DNA of 55,520 nt from an uncultured Alphaproteobacteria bacterium (GTDB lineage: Bacteria > Pseudomonadota > Alphaproteobacteria > RF32 > CAG-239). Below the pieces are notes generated by a model that worked only from the letters and a program-made list of their open reading frames with translations, had not been told where the DNA came from and made no database searches. This document shows, piece by piece, positions 24,288 to 51,113 of this stretch. The stretch covers positions 1-55,520 of the forward strand of contig CALXUN010000010.1 in NCBI GenBank assembly GCA_944391705.1, in the 5' to 3' direction. A program made the position numbers and the translations under genes. Each line of letters starts with the position of its first letter. Position 1 is the first letter of the stretch.

Positions 24288-25646
24288 ATGTCTGATAATA
24301 CGACAATCCAGCTGGTTGATGCTCATGGTGAGCCTATTAAACACCAACCGGCAGCAGCTGCTTCACGGGAACAGCTTGTCTTAAAAGTATACAACTATTT
24401 TCTAAACCAACCGGAAGCCCCTGAATTTTTGGCTGAAGTCATTAATAGTACTGTTGATGAAGATACGCTTAAAACCGGACGCTTACAAATGCGTCTGGAT
24501 GATCCGAAATTTCAAGCCGCCTGTCTGGATTATGGCTCTGAAGCCGTTATCAATGCTGCCTTGGATGAAAACCTGCCCAAAGCATATGCCATGCTTTTCC
24601 AATTTTCAGATTTGCCGCTTTACCAGGAAGAAACAACCGAAATTACCGAAATAACTTACGCTGAACTCAATGAGTTGGATCAACGTTTTATGCAAACACC
24701 GGAATTAATCCTGGCTAAAAAAGTTTGTGATATCCAAAGTGAAATTACCGGCTTTTTAAATGGCAACTGCCAAAAAAGTATTACTTCATTCCAAGCCAAC
24801 CGTATCCAGGAAAAGTTTGAAGATATCACGCCTTATTTAAATTTTGAACAAAGGGCCGCAGGTTATTACAACATATCCATTATTCACCGTGCTCTGTTGG
24901 GTGAAAAGGATTTTCAGGACCCAAAACAAAATAACGCCGAAAAAGAGTGTTTGAAAAAGGTTTTGGAATACACTTCCGACTATAAACGCATTAACTATTG
25001 TATCAACCGCTTGGGAAGTGACTTTGCCGATAAGGGAACAATCCGGGCTGCCTACCGCCGGGCTCTTGAAGCAACCAACATTCCCAATGATTTGTATAAA
25101 ATCAATCTGGCTTTGGCTCAATGTTACCTTGAAGAATACCGCCCGAGAATTGGCTTTAACCACGCTCTGGCTGTTGACAATCCGGAATATGAAAAGCTGG
25201 AAAAAGCCGAAATCTATTACCTGGACGCTTTAAGTTATGCCAAAAAACCAGAGCAGCTGAGCCTGCTTAAAAACATCGCCAAACTGCAATTTACCCAAAA
25301 GAAACTTCCGGAATGGACGGAAACCAAAACCCGCATTGCCATGCAGTTTCTGCAAGGCGAAGAACGCTGTCATGCTTTGATGGAAATTGCCTCTAAAAAT
25401 CAGGAACTTTGCCAGCCTTACCTGGAAAGAGCATTGGAAGAAGCTGTGCGTTCAAGAAAAATTAAAAAACTGCACAAAAAAATTCTGCTTAGAAAAATTG
25501 ACTATCAGTTGCGTCCAATATATCAGAAACAACACAATACAGAAAAATTGCAAAAGTTAGATAATATTTTGGAAAAATACGAATTAACACCCAAGGTTCC
25601 TTTCAACCCGCTGTTAAAATATACGCGAAAATCACGGGAAAAATAA
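24288..25646 (+). CDS. Large helical protein of unknown function (TPR-like)
   Basis: A 452-residue protein with no signal peptide and almost wholly helical content. The C-terminal two-thirds has spaced helix pairs such as YKINLALAQCYLEEY, LEKAEIYYLDALSYA and ERCHALMEIASKNQELCQPYLERAL, a spacing and Ala/Tyr/Leu pattern like tetratricopeptide repeats, so a role as a protein-binding scaffold is plausible. I find no catalytic motif. A TTGACA-N17-CAGAAT promoter precedes it and a terminator follows, so it is a single-gene unit. The 331-residue protein at 29286 has a similar composition and may be a distant relative. Confidence 0.65.
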   Translation: MSDNTTIQLVDAHGEPIKHQPAAAASREQLVLKVYNYFLNQPEAPEFLAEVINSTVDEDTLKTGRLQMRLDDPKFQAACLDYGSEAVINAALDENLPKAYAMLFQFSDLPLYQEETTEITEITYAELNELDQRFMQTPELILAKKVCDIQSEITGFLNGNCQKSITSFQANRIQEKFEDITPYLNFEQRAAGYYNISIIHRALLGEKDFQDPKQNNAEKECLKKVLEYTSDYKRINYCINRLGSDFADKGTIRAAYRRALEATNIPNDLYKINLALAQCYLEEYRPRIGFNHALAVDNPEYEKLEKAEIYYLDALSYAKKPEQLSLLKNIAKLQFTQKKLPEWTETKTRIAMQFLQGEERCHALMEIASKNQELCQPYLERALEEAVRSRKIKKLHKKILLRKIDYQLRPIYQKQHNTEKLQKLDNILEKYELTPKVPFNPLLKYTRKSREK

Positions 25647-35077: not shown

Positions 35078-36136
35078 ATGTTCAACATATCGGAATTTAT
35101 TCGCATCAACCGGGTTTACTTCATCTGGGGCGTGTTTTTAGGCCTGTTGTATTTATTCCGTAATATGTTCGGACTTGTTTTCATTACTTTTATCATGTGT
35201 TTCATTGTTTCCGGCATTTCCCACCGGATACGAAAAATCCACCGGCTCAACCGGCGGACAATTGTTATCTCTGTTTACCTGTTGTTTCTGATGGGGGTTT
35301 GTGCTTTTTTAATGTATATTCCGCCACGTCTTTTATCTGAAGCCATAAACTTTACCGAACAGCTTCCCAAAAGTATGTCTTCGGTTAGAAACTGGTTAAG
35401 CGACAATTTAAGCAATAACGAGATTATTGCTCCGCTTCTGCCCCAGATAAAAGAAGCTTTATCGCCCGAAACGGTAGTTGTCAGTGCCTGGAACATTGTA
35501 CGCGGATTACTGGAAAAAGGCATTCATTATTTTGGCTGGTTCTTTTTGGCCATGCTTTTTAGCTTCCTTATCATGTTTGACTTGCCGGAACTTTCAAGAA
35601 GCGTTCGCCGGCTGCGCTTTACACGACTGGCCGAATATTACCGGGAAACAGCCGACAGTATCATTTTATTTGCCAAGGTGGTCGGGGAAAACTTTCGGGC
35701 ACAATTGCTTATATCCGCGATTAATACGATTTTAACGGCAACCGGTCTTCATTTTTTAGGCATTAACGCCATTGCGCTTTTATGTACGATTGTATTCATG
35801 TGCGGACTTATTCCGGTACTTGGTATGTGGATATCTTCAGTGCCTATTTTACTTATGGCTGTCAATAACGGCGGTATGTCCTTGGGGCTTTGGGCACTGC
35901 TGATGATAATTGCCATCCATATGCTCGAAGCTTATGTTTTAAACCCGCGGATTGTTTCATCTTTTATGCACATCAACCCGGTTATGACACTTATTATTTT
36001 ATACATTGCCCATTCCATGATTGGTTTATGGGGCATGCTGCTCGGCGTACCGATTGCCGTATACATCTACCGTAAAATAAACAAGCCTGCGGATAATACG
36101 GAGCTTAATAAGTCCGTCCCTGTTGAGCCAAAATAA
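35078..36136 (+). CDS. AI-2E family transporter, second copy
   Basis: A 352-residue inner-membrane protein of the same AI-2E (DUF20) family as the product at 30329 but without the long charged N-terminus. Several long hydrophobic segments are visible (LGLLYLFRNMFGLVFITFIM, WFFLAMLFSFLIMFDL), with the family-like GLIPVLGMWISSVPILLMAV and HMLEAYVLNPRIVSSFMHINPV stretches. The substrate is unknown. GGAGG lies ahead of the ATG. Its last 32 bp overlap, on the other strand, the end of the lysozyme-like gene. Confidence 0.85.
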   Translation: MFNISEFIRINRVYFIWGVFLGLLYLFRNMFGLVFITFIMCFIVSGISHRIRKIHRLNRRTIVISVYLLFLMGVCAFLMYIPPRLLSEAINFTEQLPKSMSSVRNWLSDNLSNNEIIAPLLPQIKEALSPETVVVSAWNIVRGLLEKGIHYFGWFFLAMLFSFLIMFDLPELSRSVRRLRFTRLAEYYRETADSIILFAKVVGENFRAQLLISAINTILTATGLHFLGINAIALLCTIVFMCGLIPVLGMWISSVPILLMAVNNGGMSLGLWALLMIIAIHMLEAYVLNPRIVSSFMHINPVMTLIILYIAHSMIGLWGMLLGVPIAVYIYRKINKPADNTELNKSVPVEPK

Positions 36137-37685
36137 GATCGCCCACCACGCCGGTGTATGTTCCGGATTTTTCCATTTCCGCCACGCCGTCAATAACTGA
36201 TTGCGGCAGAATATCTTTGACCTTGGGACATTTTTTACCGCGGCAGGCTGCGCTGTAACGAGTTTTTTTTGCCTTATTCAGATTATTTTCTAAATTATCA
36301 AAACGAAAATATGCAAACCCGTCTTTATCAAGTTTTAACTTCCGGCCCTCATAAACACAAACATCTTTAGGCTTCAAGTTATAACACCCTTCAGCCGTTA
36401 AATCCATCAAATCCGAAACTTTCATATCCCCTTTAAGCAGGGCGCCCATAAAATAAAACCTTGACAGCAACCCTTTTTGCACCCTGTACCCGGTCAAATA
36501 GCGTGCTAAATCCTCACCTTTTTCACCTTTATTCAAGGCCTTGAGATATTCAGATTTTCTGAAATTAGTCGAACCTATGACATAAGCAAAATTGCAGGTG
36601 GCAACCATGGTTGCTTCATCCATCGGAACCTTAACATTCTCCTGAATCTGTTTTAAGATTTCAAACTGCAGATACCTTTCTTTTTGGACGTCTGCTTCTT
36701 CAACCGTCATTGTATCACCCATCTTAACCGGCGTCGTCTTCCGGCTGCCGTTACCGTTTTCATCCAGATAATATGTACAGCCGTAACCGATTGTCGGCAT
36801 ACCGACACCGTCTTTAAATGCCTCACCTGCAAAATTTTCGGCAAAAGCCAAACTGGTTTTAATGGCATCATGACATCGGGAAAACATCCGGACATGCCCC
36901 ATAGGATCTTTAAACTGCCTTTGTTCGGCTTGCTCTTTTTGCTCTTCTTTTTTATCTTTAATTTGAAAAGCCGTATAAACTGCACCGGTAATTGTTGTTG
37001 TCAGCATCACCCCGACAGCCCATCGGCGCGCTTTAACCTTTAAGGTATCGATATCCAGATTTTTAAGATTATTAGTAACTTTAACAGCATTTTGTGCCAG
37101 AAAGTTCCCGACCTTTTTTGTGATATAGATGGCTTTATCACGAGCCAGTTTTAACTGATATTCATAACGGGCTTTTTGCATATCCCTGACCCGGGCAATG
37201 CTTATCAATGTTTGATATGGACGTTCCGGATAAGCCTCCGCCAGATATTGGGATAAACTGACGGCTTTGATATATTTCTTTTCGGCACGTTTAAAAATCC
37301 GGTTAGCAACTTCCTGCGGGGAAACCTGCTTATTTCTCAAATCATAAGGTACAACCAGTTTACGGTGTTTATCATTGTCATGCCAGCTGATGTATTGCAC
37401 GAAAAGATTATGTTTTTTGTATGCCTGATAATCACGGCGCATAATATCAAAAAAATCATCTAAAAATTTTTTTTGGCATTCTTCTTTGATTTCTTCTAAG
37501 ACTTCTTGAACTTTCGCATCTGTTTGACCGCCATATTTTTCTGCACATTGTTTTTTACATTTTAAATAATTGCTCATATATGGATAAGGAATAATATATT
37601 TTTTACCATGCAGAGAAATACTTTCAACTTCTGCACCTTTTTTTTCATATTCCGATTTTAAGAAGCCCGCCAGATTTTCTTTCAT
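36105..37685 (-). CDS. Membrane-anchored lysozyme-like (GH24) protein
   Basis: A 526-residue protein with a likely cell-wall hydrolase domain. The first 215 residues are charged and helical, of unknown fold. One transmembrane segment (about 222-241, RWAVGVMLTTTITGAVYTAF) follows a basic stretch, so the N-terminus should be inside and the rest in the periplasm. From about residue 280 a GH24 (T4 lysozyme-type) domain begins: Glu283, Asp292 and Thr298 match the E-(8)-D-(5)-T spacing of Glu11-Asp20-Thr26 in T4 lysozyme, ahead of IGYGCT. NKGEKGEDLARYL lies where the second lobe is expected. About 120 C-terminal residues include six or more cysteines. A hybrid protein; no holin or phage gene is near. 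Confidence 0.75.
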   Translation of the reverse strand: MKENLAGFLKSEYEKKGAEVESISLHGKKYIIPYPYMSNYLKCKKQCAEKYGGQTDAKVQEVLEEIKEECQKKFLDDFFDIMRRDYQAYKKHNLFVQYISWHDNDKHRKLVVPYDLRNKQVSPQEVANRIFKRAEKKYIKAVSLSQYLAEAYPERPYQTLISIARVRDMQKARYEYQLKLARDKAIYITKKVGNFLAQNAVKVTNNLKNLDIDTLKVKARRWAVGVMLTTTITGAVYTAFQIKDKKEEQKEQAEQRQFKDPMGHVRMFSRCHDAIKTSLAFAENFAGEAFKDGVGMPTIGYGCTYYLDENGNGSRKTTPVKMGDTMTVEEADVQKERYLQFEILKQIQENVKVPMDEATMVATCNFAYVIGSTNFRKSEYLKALNKGEKGEDLARYLTGYRVQKGLLSRFYFMGALLKGDMKVSDLMDLTAEGCYNLKPKDVCVYEGRKLKLDKDGFAYFRFDNLENNLNKAKKTRYSAACRGKKCPKVKDILPQSVIDGVAEMEKSGTYTGVVGDLILAQQGRTY

Positions 37686-41150: not shown

Positions 41151-41413
41151 GGTTATATAAGCTCCTTTCGCAGCTATTTTAGTTAAACACACAGCCGCAT
41201 AACGCACTATCGCAAAAAAATGCGGCCAAAATTAAAAAAAACTTTCAATTCGGCTAAAATCTATACCACTAATTCCGATTCTTCAAGCAAAAAATTTTGC
41301 CATTGTAATAAATTGTAAACCTTCTTTAGTATAAAATTCTTGAATAAGATTGGTAATCCTGATAAGATTGCTGATATATGGCCTTAATTATTATAAAGGA
41401 CAAGGAATTCAAC

Positions 41414-44400
41414 ATGGATATTCTGCAAATTAAAGAAAAACTGCCGAAAGATTTTTACGATCGGTTCAAACTTCTTTCCTGCTCTTCCGGTGAAGAAGAA
41501 CAACATTGGGCTTATCTTAAAAAAATTGCCGAAAAACTTTTTAAGGACGGCATTGATTTCAACAAACATCCTGTTTTTTTCTGCATTACCGACAGCCCGG
41601 CCGCAGACGCCTGCTTTGTTTCTCCGGATTTGATTGACACTCAAAACCTTTCAGCTATTACAATTACCAAAGGGCTGTTTTCTCTTATTCGCAATGAAGA
41701 ACAATTAGCTTTCATCTTAAGCCGCGAACTTATTGCATTACAAAAATTTTTCAATCTGGTGCCGCCGACAACCGGTGTGGAAGAAAACGATCCGGACTTC
41801 ATCTGTCTTGAAAAAATGGCGGCAGCCGGATATAACATCAACGAAGCCGGAAAACTAATCGCTCACATCCTTATTAATGGGCAAAAATTCGATTCTTTGG
41901 CTGCAAAACTTTCAAAATCATCCGAAGATGAAATTGACAATGAAAGCCGTATAAGCACAATTGAACTCAAAATAGCCCAACTTGAAAATTTTTATCAAAA
42001 ACAAAACAAAGATATCCGTTCCGCCAAACCGCAGCCTTTGCCTGAAGATATAAAAGAACATATTCTGTCATCAAGACATATTCCGACATTGCAACAAATG
42101 CTGCTGACCCGCAAATATGATATGGCGGACATGTCTGCCAAACAGGATATTTTAATTCAGGCCATCCGGGATTTTATCATTGAAGACCGCCCGGCCGAAT
42201 TTTTGGAATACAAACACCGGCAAATTCAGCAAGCCGTCATTAATTATGTGATTGAGCTTCGAAAAGAAATGCCTGCGCACCTTCTTTCCACCGGGAATTA
42301 TAATCTTTTAACCGGCAATTCGCCTCAGGATGAAAATATCCGAAAACAACTGTGGCAAGAAGCAACCGGACATGAAATGCCCGAAAGCATAAATATCAGA
42401 AAAAAATTCCTGCATGCCTTTCCGGTTAAAATCATTCCCGACGAAAATTTTATGGAAGCAAAAGAAGAAAACAATTTCAAAAAAGCAAAACAGCAAAAGG
42501 AAATTGAAGCCGGAGATAATCTTAACGTCCTGTTCTGGATTAAGCTGGTAAATATGGAAGCCTCATTTGCCAACACGCCAAACATCGCCAGATTAAGCGA
42601 TTTTAACGGTTTTGTTTTAAATGGAATAAACAACGTTGATTTGACCAAAATCCCCGGCGGCCAGAATATATTAAACGTTTTGGAAAAACTGGCCGACAGC
42701 CACAATCGGATTGATGAGGCCGAAAGAACCCTGTTAATGGCGTTTTTACATATTCAGGACCATTATGATACGGGAGGAATACAGGATGCTTCTTTGCCTG
42801 CCCGAATGCGTTTTTACAACATTCGCCGGCCGCGCATATTTAAGAAATTCAACGCCAAAAGCTTTCCGGAATTAAATTTAAGTACAACCTTAAATACCAT
42901 CGGTAAAAGCCTGCCGACAAAAGTTTTGGCCAACGCCGGTTTTTCCAGGATATTCGGCATCATCGTCAAAGAACTGTCCAAAACGTCTTACCTGGTCGGT
43001 TACAACTCAAATTATAAAAATACAACCGAAGATATCAGCGAAGAACTTGCCGACTGGTTTTACATTGTCAATAAAGACGGACAAATTACCGATTCTTTTT
43101 CGGTTCAGGAAAAAGATAAAAAAATTTCCGACTTGATAAATAAAGAAGAAAATAAAATTTATCAAAAACTGGCTGAAAAAATCAAAACATATCATCAGAT
43201 GCTGGAAGCCCTCCGGCAAAACCCTGCAGAAGACAAATTCTCTGCCGAAGATTTATGGCATCTTAAACGGATGGTTTCGGCCCGTAACAGTAATAATGAA
43301 AATTACAAATTATCCCAATTGGAATATTATCAGGAAATTAATAAGGAAAAAAGCAGCCGGACAAAACGGAACAGGCAGGAAATTCTGCCGATATTGCAAA
43401 AAGATTTTCAGAAACAGAAATATGAATCCGGTTTTGAAGTTTCTATCGGCGCTTTTGACATGAATAAACTTAAACGCTGCCTGAGCCCTGAAATTTCTGC
43501 TTTTATCCAGGCACCTTACAATGAACAAACCGATAATCTTGTTTTTGATGCTTACCTGCGTCAATTACAAAAAGAATTTTCCACCTGCCAAAACATCTGG
43601 GATTTTATTCAGCCTGATTTTAAAGAAAACAGATTCATACCAGAGTGTAACACGGCCTTAAATGATGCTCATAACGCCAAATGGTTTACCGAACCGCAAT
43701 TAAAAAAATATTATCAGGCACTGTTAAAAGAAACAGAGGCCGAAAAATTACTGGAATACGGCGTTTTAATGCGGGAACGGGTTGTTCTGCCGGAATTAAA
43801 ACAACTGGCCGCTTTTACGCTGGAGCAACAGCAGTCGTACCCGGAAATTCCTGTAAAAGAGATTGATTTCAAAACATATAAACCGCTTTATGCCGGCGAA
43901 ATTGCAAAAAAACTCGGTTTCCCGTCAGAATTTGCACAATTTGCACAGGCTGAAATATTTGACGTTCCCGATGATCGGGTTGCAAATTTACAAACACATA
44001 TTCTATTACACATATTAACCGATGACAAACATCGTTTTCCGCTTGATACACTTGCCAAGCATCCTATTCATGACCTGCTTGACCTGCAAAAAGCAAAACT
44101 CGTACCGTTTTTAACGACCCGTGAAAATTATCCGCGAGATATTATCGATATGGTTAATATCTATCAAAAATTATACGATTGCCGCGTCGTAGATTTTGCA
44201 GCCACGGTCGAATTCATAATCCGTCAGATAAAAACAGAACCCAACCCGCAAAAAGCGTTGACAGCCTCTTTGAAAATGGCCGAAATCATCCAATATGCCG
44301 GAAACAACACCCACAAAGATTTATTATTAAAAGATAACCCGGCATTTGATACCAGTTTATTCGGTAAAATTACCGCTTATCAAAAACTGGCAGCTGCCGG

Positions 44401-47353
44401 TGCTTTTGCCGACGATTATATCATACAAAACCGGATGCTGGAGAACTTTATTCCGGATATTGAAGCCGTTCAGGAAGCTGACATCAAAAACAGTTATTAT
44501 GATATCTTCATCAGCAAACATCATCGTATTGCCGACCCGGATTTAAGAAGACGCTACCAACAGCTATGGGTACAATCAGCTTTTACCGCCTGCGGCTCAA
44601 AAATTGATGACAACTCATCCGAACTTTATAATAAAGTCCGTCATTTTACCGATAAACTGCATGGACATTATATTGTCAACGATTTATTCAAAATCCGCCG
44701 GGAGGACAATGTCAACCCTGCCGACCGGATTGAAATTGCCCAAGTCTTGGCAGACAGACTTGTCTCCCAACAGAAACTGTCGGCTTTGATAAAGCCGCAG
44801 CCGGCAACTTATGCCGATTTGGAATTAAATCTCAGTGCCGAAAACTTCCAAACAGCCGGTTTTGCAGCCATAAGAACTTTTCTAAAAAATTTCCCGGCAG
44901 AAACAGATAAAATCGTGGACTTTTTAGTTTCCAAAGGAACCGTTAATGATTGCCAAAACCTGCAGCAGCACATGCAAAAATTGCAATCCGAAAAAAATAG
45001 GGTTTCGGCAGAAACACTTCATATTTTCTACCGCGAATTTTGGACTTACCCGCCGGAAGCTCAAAGCGTATTCTTAAATGAGCTGCTTTTGGACATCCAA
45101 CCGCACACTGCAGAAAACCAATGGAAAGACATCTTTAATCAGATTGTCAGTCGTATGTTCCCCCATGTTGATGCGCCAACACTTGAAACAGTAAGTTTTC
45201 TTTTGAAATATTACATATTATCCAGACCTCCGGCACAAAGAACCAAACCGCTGGTCGCCATGATGACAGCTGCCGTTGGAAATTTAGACACAACAGATGC
45301 TTCCAAAAGTCTGGGAAAAGGTTTCCGTCTTTTTTTGGAAAATGCCGGACCGGAAACCGTCAAAATCGGTTATACTCTGGCATCATACACGGATATCCCC
45401 AAATTTATCCGCGATGAATTTTTGAAACTTAAGCCTCCGGTTATCCGGCCGCCGCGATGGGAAATTTATGAATGGCTTGATTTTTACAAAACTCAGGAAA
45501 AAGATGTATCCTTAGATTACGGAACAGATGTCTGGCTGGGTAAATTCATAACTTCTTCCCTGTATTTTGTTACTTTGGAAAAAGGACAATTTCAAAACGG
45601 CAAACCGCCTTTTGAAAGCAACAGAATTATCAAGCTTTTACGTGCCGGTGCCAAATTATCTGCCGAAAACGAATTTAAAACTTTTGAAACCATGCTCCGC
45701 AGCCTGGTTGAAAAAAATCTTATAAAAATTGACCTTGATAAATATCTGGCACTAATCCGCCGCACGGAAGAAAAATTAAATATAGAAATTGATTTACAAA
45801 CCGGATTTGAACAATTCAAAACCTCGCAACAGATATACAGCAACAAAGAATTCCGTGCCAATGGATATAAATTCAAGATTCACATCGCCGACTGGCTCAA
45901 TTATGGCAAGAACTGGGCCGAAATGAACTATATTAAAGGCTATGAACTTGAAAAAATCAAGAACCTCCGTTACCGGCAGGCTGCTGCCAAGGTATGCTTT
46001 TCTTTAGAAGCCATGAACTTATTGTCCGGCGGTCGTTTTTATCATGAACGTTTCGGACTGGAATTGCGTTTTGATACCGACAACAACATTATTAATCTGA
46101 TTGATATCGGGGCAGCACCCGTCGTTCCTCCGGTTCCCGGAGATAAAGAGCTTTTGGGAGCCGTCATTTACCGCACACTGGAAAGATTTATGAATGACAA
46201 AGCCGATATTAACGGTTTCAGAAAAATGAGTGTTATTTTAAACAACGAAATTAATAAAGTTTATCAGGAAAAACAAACCGCATCGACATATTTGCAGGAA
46301 TGCCAGCGCGGTTTGCTTGCTCTGGCCGAATTTTATACGGATTTTAATTCGCAAGACTTTATTGACAGTTTAAATAATGCTTTAAACAACCAGAGTCTTC
46401 CTTTTGATAAACATATTATGAAAGGTTTCATTGCCGAAGGTATAAAAAACATCGGAATCTTTGAATCCGAACAAACTCTGTTATCCGTTCAGGATAAAGA
46501 AAAACTCGGCATTCTGTTATTTAACATTTATGCTGCGTCCTTAACCAACAACAGCATAAAAGCCGGCAACGTCATAAAAAAAGAAATTATCAAAATGCGA
46601 CAAACATCCGAAAGCATTATGCCCCTTTTAAAGATAATTTCGGAAAAAATAAAAGACTTGGATAAAGATTCCCTAAGTCTGGATTTGCCCAAAGAATTTA
46701 TGCCGACCATAGGTGAGATGATTATCCGCCAGAATGTCGACAGTGCCATTTTAAAAGGCATTATGAAAGAAGTAATCTACACCGTCAGCCTGGATGAAGA
46801 AAATATGCCTTTCTCGGCACAGGACCGACAGGAATTCGGCCGGCTTTTATATGACACTTTCAGCTTCATCGTTTCTGAAAACCAGCAGGGCAAAAGCGCA
46901 GATATTGCCGAAACATATCTGATGCTGCACGCAAGCGGAAAATACAAATCCGAATATGCCGCCCGCATTGCCGCCATTGTCCAAATGGTAAGAACCGTTA
47001 ACATGACGGAAAAACATCACGGACTCAATACGGACATGGCTGTCAAATCAATTATTCTTTCCGGAAAAATGGATAAAGAAATCGTTCAGGGAACAGCCGA
47101 AACTTTCCGCACGCGCAATCCGAATTCATTAACCCGTTCGGTTGTTGCCAAAGGTTTGGAATTATTCCTAACACAAAAGCAGGCAACGCCCGATCAGTTA
47201 AAGAAAGCTTTAATAAAAATCTTTGTTAAAAAGAAAAATGCCCTACCGGTACTTGACCGGGATATTATGACGGCTTTGGAAAATCCTGAAAACAGAATGC
47301 AGATTGTTAAAATGATGCAGATTTACATTCAAAAACTCGGCGGTGGAAAATAA
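41414..47353 (+). CDS. Giant protein with M48-like and UbiB/ABC1-like degenerate domains
   Basis: A 1,979-residue protein with no signal peptide. I start at the ATG at 41414, seven bases after AAGGA; an ATG at 41378 lacks a site. The first 160 residues follow M48 peptidases (ITITKGLFSLIRNEEQLAFIL, then MAAAGYNINEAGKLI), but the zinc motif HExxH is RELIA (104-108), so it should be inactive. From about 1,300 to 1,600 the chain tracks UbiB/ABC1 atypical kinases: FLENAGPETVKIGYTLAS with Lys1317 of the KxGQ motif (Gln is Tyr), RIIKLLRAG with Lys1407 as the VAVK Lys, EID at 1458-1460 as ExD, and IDIG with Asp1564 as the metal Asp. The HADPHPGN loop is HERFGLEL (His1544), so catalysis is doubtful. 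The remaining parts are helical and unfamiliar. It diverges from ppdK and ends at a terminator. Confidence 0.7.
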   Translation: MDILQIKEKLPKDFYDRFKLLSCSSGEEEQHWAYLKKIAEKLFKDGIDFNKHPVFFCITDSPAADACFVSPDLIDTQNLSAITITKGLFSLIRNEEQLAFILSRELIALQKFFNLVPPTTGVEENDPDFICLEKMAAAGYNINEAGKLIAHILINGQKFDSLAAKLSKSSEDEIDNESRISTIELKIAQLENFYQKQNKDIRSAKPQPLPEDIKEHILSSRHIPTLQQMLLTRKYDMADMSAKQDILIQAIRDFIIEDRPAEFLEYKHRQIQQAVINYVIELRKEMPAHLLSTGNYNLLTGNSPQDENIRKQLWQEATGHEMPESINIRKKFLHAFPVKIIPDENFMEAKEENNFKKAKQQKEIEAGDNLNVLFWIKLVNMEASFANTPNIARLSDFNGFVLNGINNVDLTKIPGGQNILNVLEKLADSHNRIDEAERTLLMAFLHIQDHYDTGGIQDASLPARMRFYNIRRPRIFKKFNAKSFPELNLSTTLNTIGKSLPTKVLANAGFSRIFGIIVKELSKTSYLVGYNSNYKNTTEDISEELADWFYIVNKDGQITDSFSVQEKDKKISDLINKEENKIYQKLAEKIKTYHQMLEALRQNPAEDKFSAEDLWHLKRMVSARNSNNENYKLSQLEYYQEINKEKSSRTKRNRQEILPILQKDFQKQKYESGFEVSIGAFDMNKLKRCLSPEISAFIQAPYNEQTDNLVFDAYLRQLQKEFSTCQNIWDFIQPDFKENRFIPECNTALNDAHNAKWFTEPQLKKYYQALLKETEAEKLLEYGVLMRERVVLPELKQLAAFTLEQQQSYPEIPVKEIDFKTYKPLYAGEIAKKLGFPSEFAQFAQAEIFDVPDDRVANLQTHILLHILTDDKHRFPLDTLAKHPIHDLLDLQKAKLVPFLTTRENYPRDIIDMVNIYQKLYDCRVVDFAATVEFIIRQIKTEPNPQKALTASLKMAEIIQYAGNNTHKDLLLKDNPAFDTSLFGKITAYQKLAAAGAFADDYIIQNRMLENFIPDIEAVQEADIKNSYYDIFISKHHRIADPDLRRRYQQLWVQSAFTACGSKIDDNSSELYNKVRHFTDKLHGHYIVNDLFKIRREDNVNPADRIEIAQVLADRLVSQQKLSALIKPQPATYADLELNLSAENFQTAGFAAIRTFLKNFPAETDKIVDFLVSKGTVNDCQNLQQHMQKLQSEKNRVSAETLHIFYREFWTYPPEAQSVFLNELLLDIQPHTAENQWKDIFNQIVSRMFPHVDAPTLETVSFLLKYYILSRPPAQRTKPLVAMMTAAVGNLDTTDASKSLGKGFRLFLENAGPETVKIGYTLASYTDIPKFIRDEFLKLKPPVIRPPRWEIYEWLDFYKTQEKDVSLDYGTDVWLGKFITSSLYFVTLEKGQFQNGKPPFESNRIIKLLRAGAKLSAENEFKTFETMLRSLVEKNLIKIDLDKYLALIRRTEEKLNIEIDLQTGFEQFKTSQQIYSNKEFRANGYKFKIHIADWLNYGKNWAEMNYIKGYELEKIKNLRYRQAAAKVCFSLEAMNLLSGGRFYHERFGLELRFDTDNNIINLIDIGAAPVVPPVPGDKELLGAVIYRTLERFMNDKADINGFRKMSVILNNEINKVYQEKQTASTYLQECQRGLLALAEFYTDFNSQDFIDSLNNALNNQSLPFDKHIMKGFIAEGIKNIGIFESEQTLLSVQDKEKLGILLFNIYAASLTNNSIKAGNVIKKEIIKMRQTSESIMPLLKIISEKIKDLDKDSLSLDLPKEFMPTIGEMIIRQNVDSAILKGIMKEVIYTVSLDEENMPFSAQDRQEFGRLLYDTFSFIVSENQQGKSADIAETYLMLHASGKYKSEYAARIAAIVQMVRTVNMTEKHHGLNTDMAVKSIILSGKMDKEIVQGTAETFRTRNPNSLTRSVVAKGLELFLTQKQATPDQLKKALIKIFVKKKNALPVLDRDIMTALENPENRMQIVKMMQIYIQKLGGGK

Positions 47354-50675: not shown

Positions 50676-51113
50676 ATGATTAAAAAAATTTTTACCCTTT
50701 TAGCTTTAGTAACAGCGGCAACAGCGGCACATGCCACCCCCGAATATGATGCGTGTTATCAAAAAGCGGCTGATGACAATGCCGTTGCCTTATGCATGAA
50801 AGCCGAAAACACCCGCCTTTTAAAAGAGGTCCAACAAATATATCTTAATTTATCCAAACTGGAAGATATAAAAAAATGGAACAACGGCAACGGACTGCTC
50901 TCCGGAAATTTAAAAGACATGTATAACAGCTGGCTGGCTTACCGCAACCGTTATTGTTCGCTTTATGTTGTTGCTTCAAAAAACACATTCGGCAGTTCTT
51001 CTTTTGACCGGGAAAGATGTCTTTTGTCTTTCACCAACGAACATCTTGAACTCATAAAGACCATTATCGTTAATGCCAACAGCGGCGGCGAAGAAGATGA
51101 TATTGAAGAATAG
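50676..51113 (+). CDS. Exported LprI-like (DUF1311) protein
   Basis: A 145-residue protein with a clear signal peptide (MIKKIFTLLALVTAATAAHA). The mature part has the Cys pattern of DUF1311/LprI proteins: YDACYQKA, ALCMKAEN, YRNRYCSLY and ERCLLSFTNEHLE, four Cys that could form two disulfides. Some LprI-type proteins inhibit lysozymes, so a protective role is possible but unproven. The tail is acidic (GGEEDDIEE). Likely periplasmic. GGGAG precedes the ATG. Confidence 0.7.
   Translation: MIKKIFTLLALVTAATAAHATPEYDACYQKAADDNAVALCMKAENTRLLKEVQQIYLNLSKLEDIKKWNNGNGLLSGNLKDMYNSWLAYRNRYCSLYVVASKNTFGSSSFDRERCLLSFTNEHLELIKTIIVNANSGGEEDDIEE

Follow-up and report, generated by a model that had tools for sequence, protein, structure and literature searches.

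The 55,520-nucleotide stretch of DNA analysed here (contig CALXUN010000010.1 of GenBank assembly GCA_944391705.1, from an uncultured alphaproteobacterium; hereafter the window) carries on its + strand a gene (41378-47353) for a very large protein that combines a degenerate M48-like metallopeptidase domain at the N-terminus with a UbiB/ABC1-like pseudokinase domain at the C-terminus. Its homology to both families is near certain; by their defining features it is neither a UbiB kinase nor an M48 peptidase, yet it is descended from both. An M48-like N-terminus and a UbiB-like C-terminus in one chain define what we call M48-UbiB giants (a name coined here), and the window protein fits this layout within a single open reading frame (ORF). 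We put at about even the chance that it is a double pseudoenzyme which is kept as a binding scaffold or sensor and which derives from a nucleotide-switched peptidase ancestor. The open frame comprises 1991 residues; counted from Met13 at 41414 the protein has 1,979, the length already given in a preliminary description of this DNA that was made from the letters alone. Residue numbers below follow the 1991-residue frame (P0001).

Homology of the C-terminal domain to UbiB/ABC1 proteins

Profile comparison and predicted structure delimit the UbiB/ABC1-like domain, together with its helical N-terminal extension, to residues 1315-1682 (45320-46423; all features of the gene lie on the + strand). The six UbiB motifs that the preliminary description had placed at 45311-46213 are all present, stand in the order of UbiB and fall on the same alignment columns as in 11 canonical UbiB proteins. 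The family alignment locates KIGY (1329-1332; 45362-45373), the KxGQ motif with Gln replaced by Tyr, YHERFGLE (1555-1562; 46040-46063), the catalytic loop that reads HADxHxGN in UbiB and DxDRHxxQ in giants, and DIG (1576-1578; 46103-46111), a DFG-like triplet with Asp and Gly retained. The motif table adds the beta3 lysine K1419 (45632-45634) within RIIKLLRAG and EID (1470-1472; 45785-45793), the ExD motif; MNYIKGYEL occupies residues 1516-1524. For the catalytic loop the family alignment and the hhalign alignment of the window genus differ by one residue, and the former was used.

When the four proteins of the window genus were aligned by hhalign with 15 canonical UbiB proteins (eight found with the family profile, seven with Pfam ABC1), an E-value of 6e-9 and a probability of 95.9 were obtained. 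As controls, the N-terminal part was compared with the UbiB profile (probability 0.13, E 0.45) and the M48 profile with the kinase part (probability 0.16, E 0.37); on these results chance or composition was rejected. The predicted model of the domain has the UbiB fold with its helical N-terminal extension and with helices between beta3 and alpha-C, and in conjunction with the hhalign result it bears out the proposed homology. A different kinase family (RIO, APH or PI3/4-kinase-like) was considered, since the loop DxDRHxxQ, found in 15 of the 16 giants outside the window genus and with Tyr for His in the sixteenth, resembles the DRHxxN motif of PI3/4-kinase-like families. The other kinase families, however, ranked below UbiB; on this ranking the assignment was rejected and its probability is minimal.

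Two negative results weigh against the homology: Pfam ABC1 (PF03109) gave no hit to the window protein with the E-value threshold relaxed to 10, and no UbiB chain in the PDB was found by sequence with the single protein, A1 or the kinase profile as query. The NCBIfam UbiB model matched residues 1274-1532 better than expected by chance (E 7.9e-5), though far under its cut-off. Among five relatives tested, NCBIfam UbiB reached E<=0.001 in four and Pfam ABC1 exceeded its cut-off in one.

Alterations of the kinase site

The motif table covers 20 giants, four from the window genus and 16 others, besides 11 UbiB proteins; genomes G054 and G056 were left out. The UbiB rows have the catalytic Asp and the beta3 Lys throughout (11/11) and Ala as first loop residue in 10 of 11. 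All 16 other giants keep Lys and Gln of KxGQ (its Gly in 10), the ExD Glu, the catalytic Asp and the DFG Asp; they have Gln at the position of the metal-binding Asn (16/16), Gly as first residue of the loop (16/16), the beta3 Lys in three cases and the alpha-C Glu in none. Judged by these residues, even the better-preserved giants are altered at the kinase site and would be putative catalysts at most.

In the window genus the ExD Glu (hence present in 20/20 aligned giants), the DFG Asp and the beta3 Lys are retained by all four proteins, and the alpha-C Glu and the nucleotide-loop Gly by none. The KxGQ Lys is present in three and Arg in one; its Gln is retained in G001 and G002 and replaced by Tyr in the other two (KIGY in the window protein, KVGY in G003). 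The catalytic position reads E, E, E, T, with Thr in G002, and the metal position E, Q, V, Q. The window protein has Glu at both of these positions and Gly at the alpha-C Glu position in spite of its beta3 Lys, and its loop sequence TSSL, within LGKFITSSLYF (45536-45568; at the UbiB Ala-rich loop and the Gly-first loop of other giants), does not correspond to an Ala-rich loop. Compared with UbiB/COQ8/ADCK proteins the window domain therefore shares the fold with its helical N-terminal extension, the KxGQ and ExD positions, the beta3 Lys, the DFG Asp and profile similarity, but lacks the catalytic Asp, the metal Asn, the alpha-C Glu, the KxGQ Gln and the Ala-rich loop. The earlier view that the phosphotransfer loop is lost with some contact residues left is supported and enlarged: Glu has replaced the catalytic Asp and the metal Asn, and the ExD Glu and the DFG Asp remain.

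The UbiB-like head might nevertheless hydrolyse or transfer phosphate in a non-canonical way, with Glu in place of the catalytic Asp and with the Lys, the ExD Glu and the DFG Asp, invariant in the four proteins, holding the nucleotide. The exchange of Asp for Glu in three of four agrees with this, as does a survey (PMC4702295) which, in the part available, describes kinase-like enzymes in which beta3 Lys and C-helix Glu are both missing and which may bind ATP differently. However, the Thr of G002, the variable metal position, the Tyr in KxGQ of two of the four and the loss of the family glycine of the nucleotide loop in all of them speak against such an activity, which we consider unlikely.

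The degenerate M48-like domain

Residues 16-235 (41423-42082) form a degenerate, BepA-like M48 metallopeptidase domain, and the predicted structure of this part shows the M48 fold. The N-terminal family profile matched the M48 structure 3c37 (E 7.1e-19) and BepA (E 4.3e-11) in the PDB; the single protein, A1 and the kinase profile retrieved no significant M48 chain. Pfam Peptidase_M48 was above its cut-off at the N-terminus of all five relatives tested. BepA is a periplasmic protein with TPR repeats. Unlike BepA/YfgC and other M48 peptidases, the window genus lacks the zinc-ligand histidines: HExxH is present in none of its four proteins, and in the alignments RELIA (116-120; 41723-41737), of which the Glu alone is retained, occupies the position of this motif in the window protein. 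The column of the third ligand contains Glu in the window protein, Lys in G003, Gln in G001 and a gap in G002. Outside the window genus HExxH was found in 15 of 15 rows, G054 and G056 included, as well as in G902, and it is lost in G911; the N-terminus of G041 lies beyond its contig end.

G902 and G911 joined the set only once the motifs had been fixed and thereby provide an independent check: both have the catalytic Asp, the Gln at the metal site and the DFG Asp, and one has HExxH. The giant of G911 (L097, 2-4405, +) has a full DFG (FDFGG) and the kinase motifs without HExxH, a loss of the peptidase site that is probably separate from that in the window genus.

Occurrence of M48-UbiB giants

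A first search of 36 genomes gave five matches, namely the genome of the window, three of its genus and G020 (24% identity over 694 residues). The three congeneric genomes all encode full-length orthologues (75, 70 and 42% identity). Within the order, a profile of these five matched 21 of 154 genomes, including G063, G083, G112, G065 and G011, which have short M48-like frames only and are not counted as giants; a UbiB-like part within a long frame was present in 14 of the 154, with two such frames in G038. A class-wide kinase profile (E<=1e-6) matched 4 of 385 genomes and added G221, the sole genome of its order in the set, and G370 with two copies; in the order of G370 (E<=1e-10) 3 of 33 genomes matched, G902 and G911 being new. 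A phylum-wide family profile (E<=1e-6) matched 18 of 398 genomes with that of the window as the sole strong match; the other 17, weaker, correspond to frames of 475-579 residues with KxGQ and HADxHxGN, three of which were checked with Pfam ABC1. Since the relatives tested match M48 at the N-terminus and mostly UbiB at the C-terminus, the family combines both kinds of domain in one chain, which has 1,200 to 1,992 residues where the frame does not run off its contig.

G054 and G056 keep HExxH in a long frame whose C-terminal part is without UbiB motifs; frames of this description lie on L051 (6689-10597, +; 1,302 residues) and L052 (5538-9341, -; 1,267 residues). In G056 the UbiB-like part occurs as ORF fragments only (L050, 5314-6147, -), apparently a decayed copy, beside a recA-like gene. 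One scan of viral contigs (query: the kinase alignment) and searches of plasmids (query: one G038 relative) and phages (query: the window protein) gave no relative, and a phage or plasmid origin was dismissed.

The window protein could also be an effector that a type IV system delivers to a host cell or to some other microbe. Its size, the patchy distribution of the giants and the absence of any 19-residue window with hydropathy >1.6 from all 17 giants examined for this (L041 and L019 without their N-termini; G221, G370, G902 and G911 outside the scan; a signal-peptide predictor was not used) are consistent with this, and a VirB4-family match exists in 10 of 16 giant-bearing genomes, among them all four of the window genus. 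On the other hand, six of the 16 have no VirB4 match (G041 and G221 of these are <80% complete), the VirB4 proteins may serve conjugation instead, and within the family the VirB4 comparison covers giant-bearing genomes only. We attribute a low probability to the effector explanation.

Evolutionary history and constraint

Two trees of the kinase domain were calculated, one with 18 giants and 11 UbiB proteins and one with 20 giants and 7 UbiB proteins, from which four UbiB rows flagged for odd letter composition had been dropped; G054 and G056 are in neither. Both separate giants from UbiB by a branch with 100/100 support. In the 18-giant tree G130, G036 and G039 group with the window genus (98/96), a grouping that the 20-giant tree leaves unresolved. 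On the latter the loss of HExxH requires two changes, and a single change sufficed in 0 of 200 bootstrap trees; a single loss is compatible with the starred branches taken alone, and G911 is a long branch. Both active-site losses in the window genus look derived because the catalytic Asp is found in 11/11 UbiB proteins and 16/16 other giants, because the giants lie on one side of the 100/100 branch and because HExxH occurs outside the genus.

Between the window gene and that of G003 the proportions of synonymous and nonsynonymous differences (pS and pN) are 0.70 and 0.14, and the ratio of nonsynonymous to synonymous substitution rates (dN/dS) is about 0.08 overall, 0.07 in the UbiB-like part and 0.26 in the M48-like part; these ratios are rough because dS is near saturation and partly incomputable. 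A gene that is fading, its domains decaying and its product of no present use, would be in agreement with the loss of two active sites and with the fragments in G056. The uninterrupted frames of 1,977-1,992 residues in all four genomes at 42-75% identity and the low dN/dS against G003 contradict this, so that we judge a relic very improbable.

Remaining regions and genome setting

Between the two heads lies a middle region of about 970 residues (42083-44983), mostly helical in the predicted model with several stretches of predicted local distance difference test (pLDDT) <50; it gave weak helical matches only and no family name. The C-terminal tail (46424-47350), of which the first 43 residues were modelled, is by window identities among the better conserved regions within the genus. 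A strongly hydrophobic segment is absent from the window protein by the hydropathy measure given above.

PF03109 matched none of the four window-genus genomes and one of 16 from other genera of the family (G012, weakly); G020 matched, as did all 15 genomes taken from families of the class that lie outside the order. Searches for stand-alone ABC1 frames, UbiA and VirB4 covered 16 giant-bearing genomes of the 18, since G902 and G911 were not yet known; five of the 16 assemblies are <90% complete. A clear stand-alone ABC1 frame exists in G370 (451 residues), a partial one in G020 (297 residues), and weak matches lie in a 719-residue frame of G036 and a 489-residue frame of G221. UbiA-family proteins occur in five of the 16 genomes (G002, G020, G036, G067 and G370) and not in G000, the genome of the window. 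In contrast to UbiB/COQ8/ADCK proteins, the window protein is a giant with an M48-like N-terminus and no hydrophobic segment, in a genome without a match to UbiA or another ABC1. A role in ubiquinone metabolism is unlikely for it, as its genome has no match to either; in the five genomes with UbiA the giants may have such a role.

A PPDK gene (by Pfam) adjoins the giant gene of the window, as it does on L006; on L008 and L010 the adjoining frame is divergent but matches in size. The presence in the window of PPDK and of an acetate-kinase-like gene (by sequence reading) fits fermentation. Beyond the PPDK gene the window encodes a 526-residue protein (36105-37685, -) with a phage-lysozyme domain (PF00959, E 2.1e-16, residues 283-401) and an apparent membrane segment before it; the same window has a 145-residue protein (50676-51113, +) with a match to the lysozyme inhibitor LprI (E 9.1e-6). 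A 452-residue ORF (24288-25646, +) has no Pfam match at E 0.001. Sequence reading further indicates an RNA-methyltransferase-like gene near the giant in three genomes (L007, 6785-7576, -; L041, 4579-5367, -; L046, 12839-13576, +) and, upstream of a giant, a frame that starts like a zeta-toxin-type nucleotide-binding protein (L049, 4520-5461, +).

Proposed function

We assume that the ancestor had two heads, an M48 zinc peptidase and an atypical kinase domain of the UbiB/ABC1 type, connected by a long helical region, and that the window genus lost both active sites but retained the protein. Proteins that the ancestral peptidase once bound or cut would be held as partners by the M48-like head together with the helical region, and the UbiB-like head, with its Lys, ExD Glu and DFG Asp, may be a switch that senses nucleotides or lipids, or a mere docking surface. 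Where relatives have HExxH, this switch would control actual proteolysis. Partner binding, ligand sensing and gating are what we infer here.

Several points count against a retained scaffold or sensor. To our knowledge no partner, ligand or activity has been described for any giant. Evolution is faster in the M48-like part than elsewhere in the protein, so this part could be a fading relic, and the constraint is measured with a dS that is near saturation against G003 and incomputable overall against G002 and for much of G001 and G002. G911 has lost HExxH with its kinase motifs kept and G054 and G056 show the reverse, so the two heads seem to fail separately, which weakens a tight coupling of peptidase and switch. 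Finally, G002 carries a UbiA-family protein although it belongs to the window genus.

A broader and more tentative proposal, less probable than the double pseudoenzyme alone, is that the giants are soluble peptidases of a class not described so far, switched by nucleotides and independent of quinones, the window genus being a double pseudoenzyme that probably regulates or replaces a partner. The UbiB head may then perform phosphate chemistry unlike that of UbiB, because of the Gly-first loop in 16/16 giants outside the window genus and the missing Lys-Glu pair (alpha-C Glu in 0/20).

The mycobacterial ABC1 proteins MSMEG_1954 and Rv3197 are entries of 313-401 residues and no giants; Rv3197 adjoins whiB7. 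According to the accessible part of PMC13118837, clusters of M48 and of ABC1 proteins are each syntenic with whiB7 in Streptomyces. Plant plastoglobules contain the M48 peptidase PGM48 and ABC1 kinases (PMC9725166 and PMC12587418, as far as their available text goes), that is, the same two families in one compartment but as separate proteins on lipid droplets, a likeness that is a lead rather than a test. Fusion, plastoglobules and synteny suggest, by analogy, that M48 and ABC1 proteins share a task. No description of an M48-UbiB/ABC1 fusion was found in the literature searched, which covered few subscription papers, and where the accessible texts mention both proteins together these are separate.

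The giants provide a covalent link between M48 and ABC1 that, in the parts of those sources available, is otherwise seen through a shared compartment or synteny. In the window genus both heads are losing catalytic residues and the gene is retained nonetheless. The giants are a natural UbiB-like family with a Gly-first loop, fused to M48 and present in genomes of which 11 of 16 searched have no UbiA match, and they offer a test of the role of the UbiB fold apart from ubiquinone.
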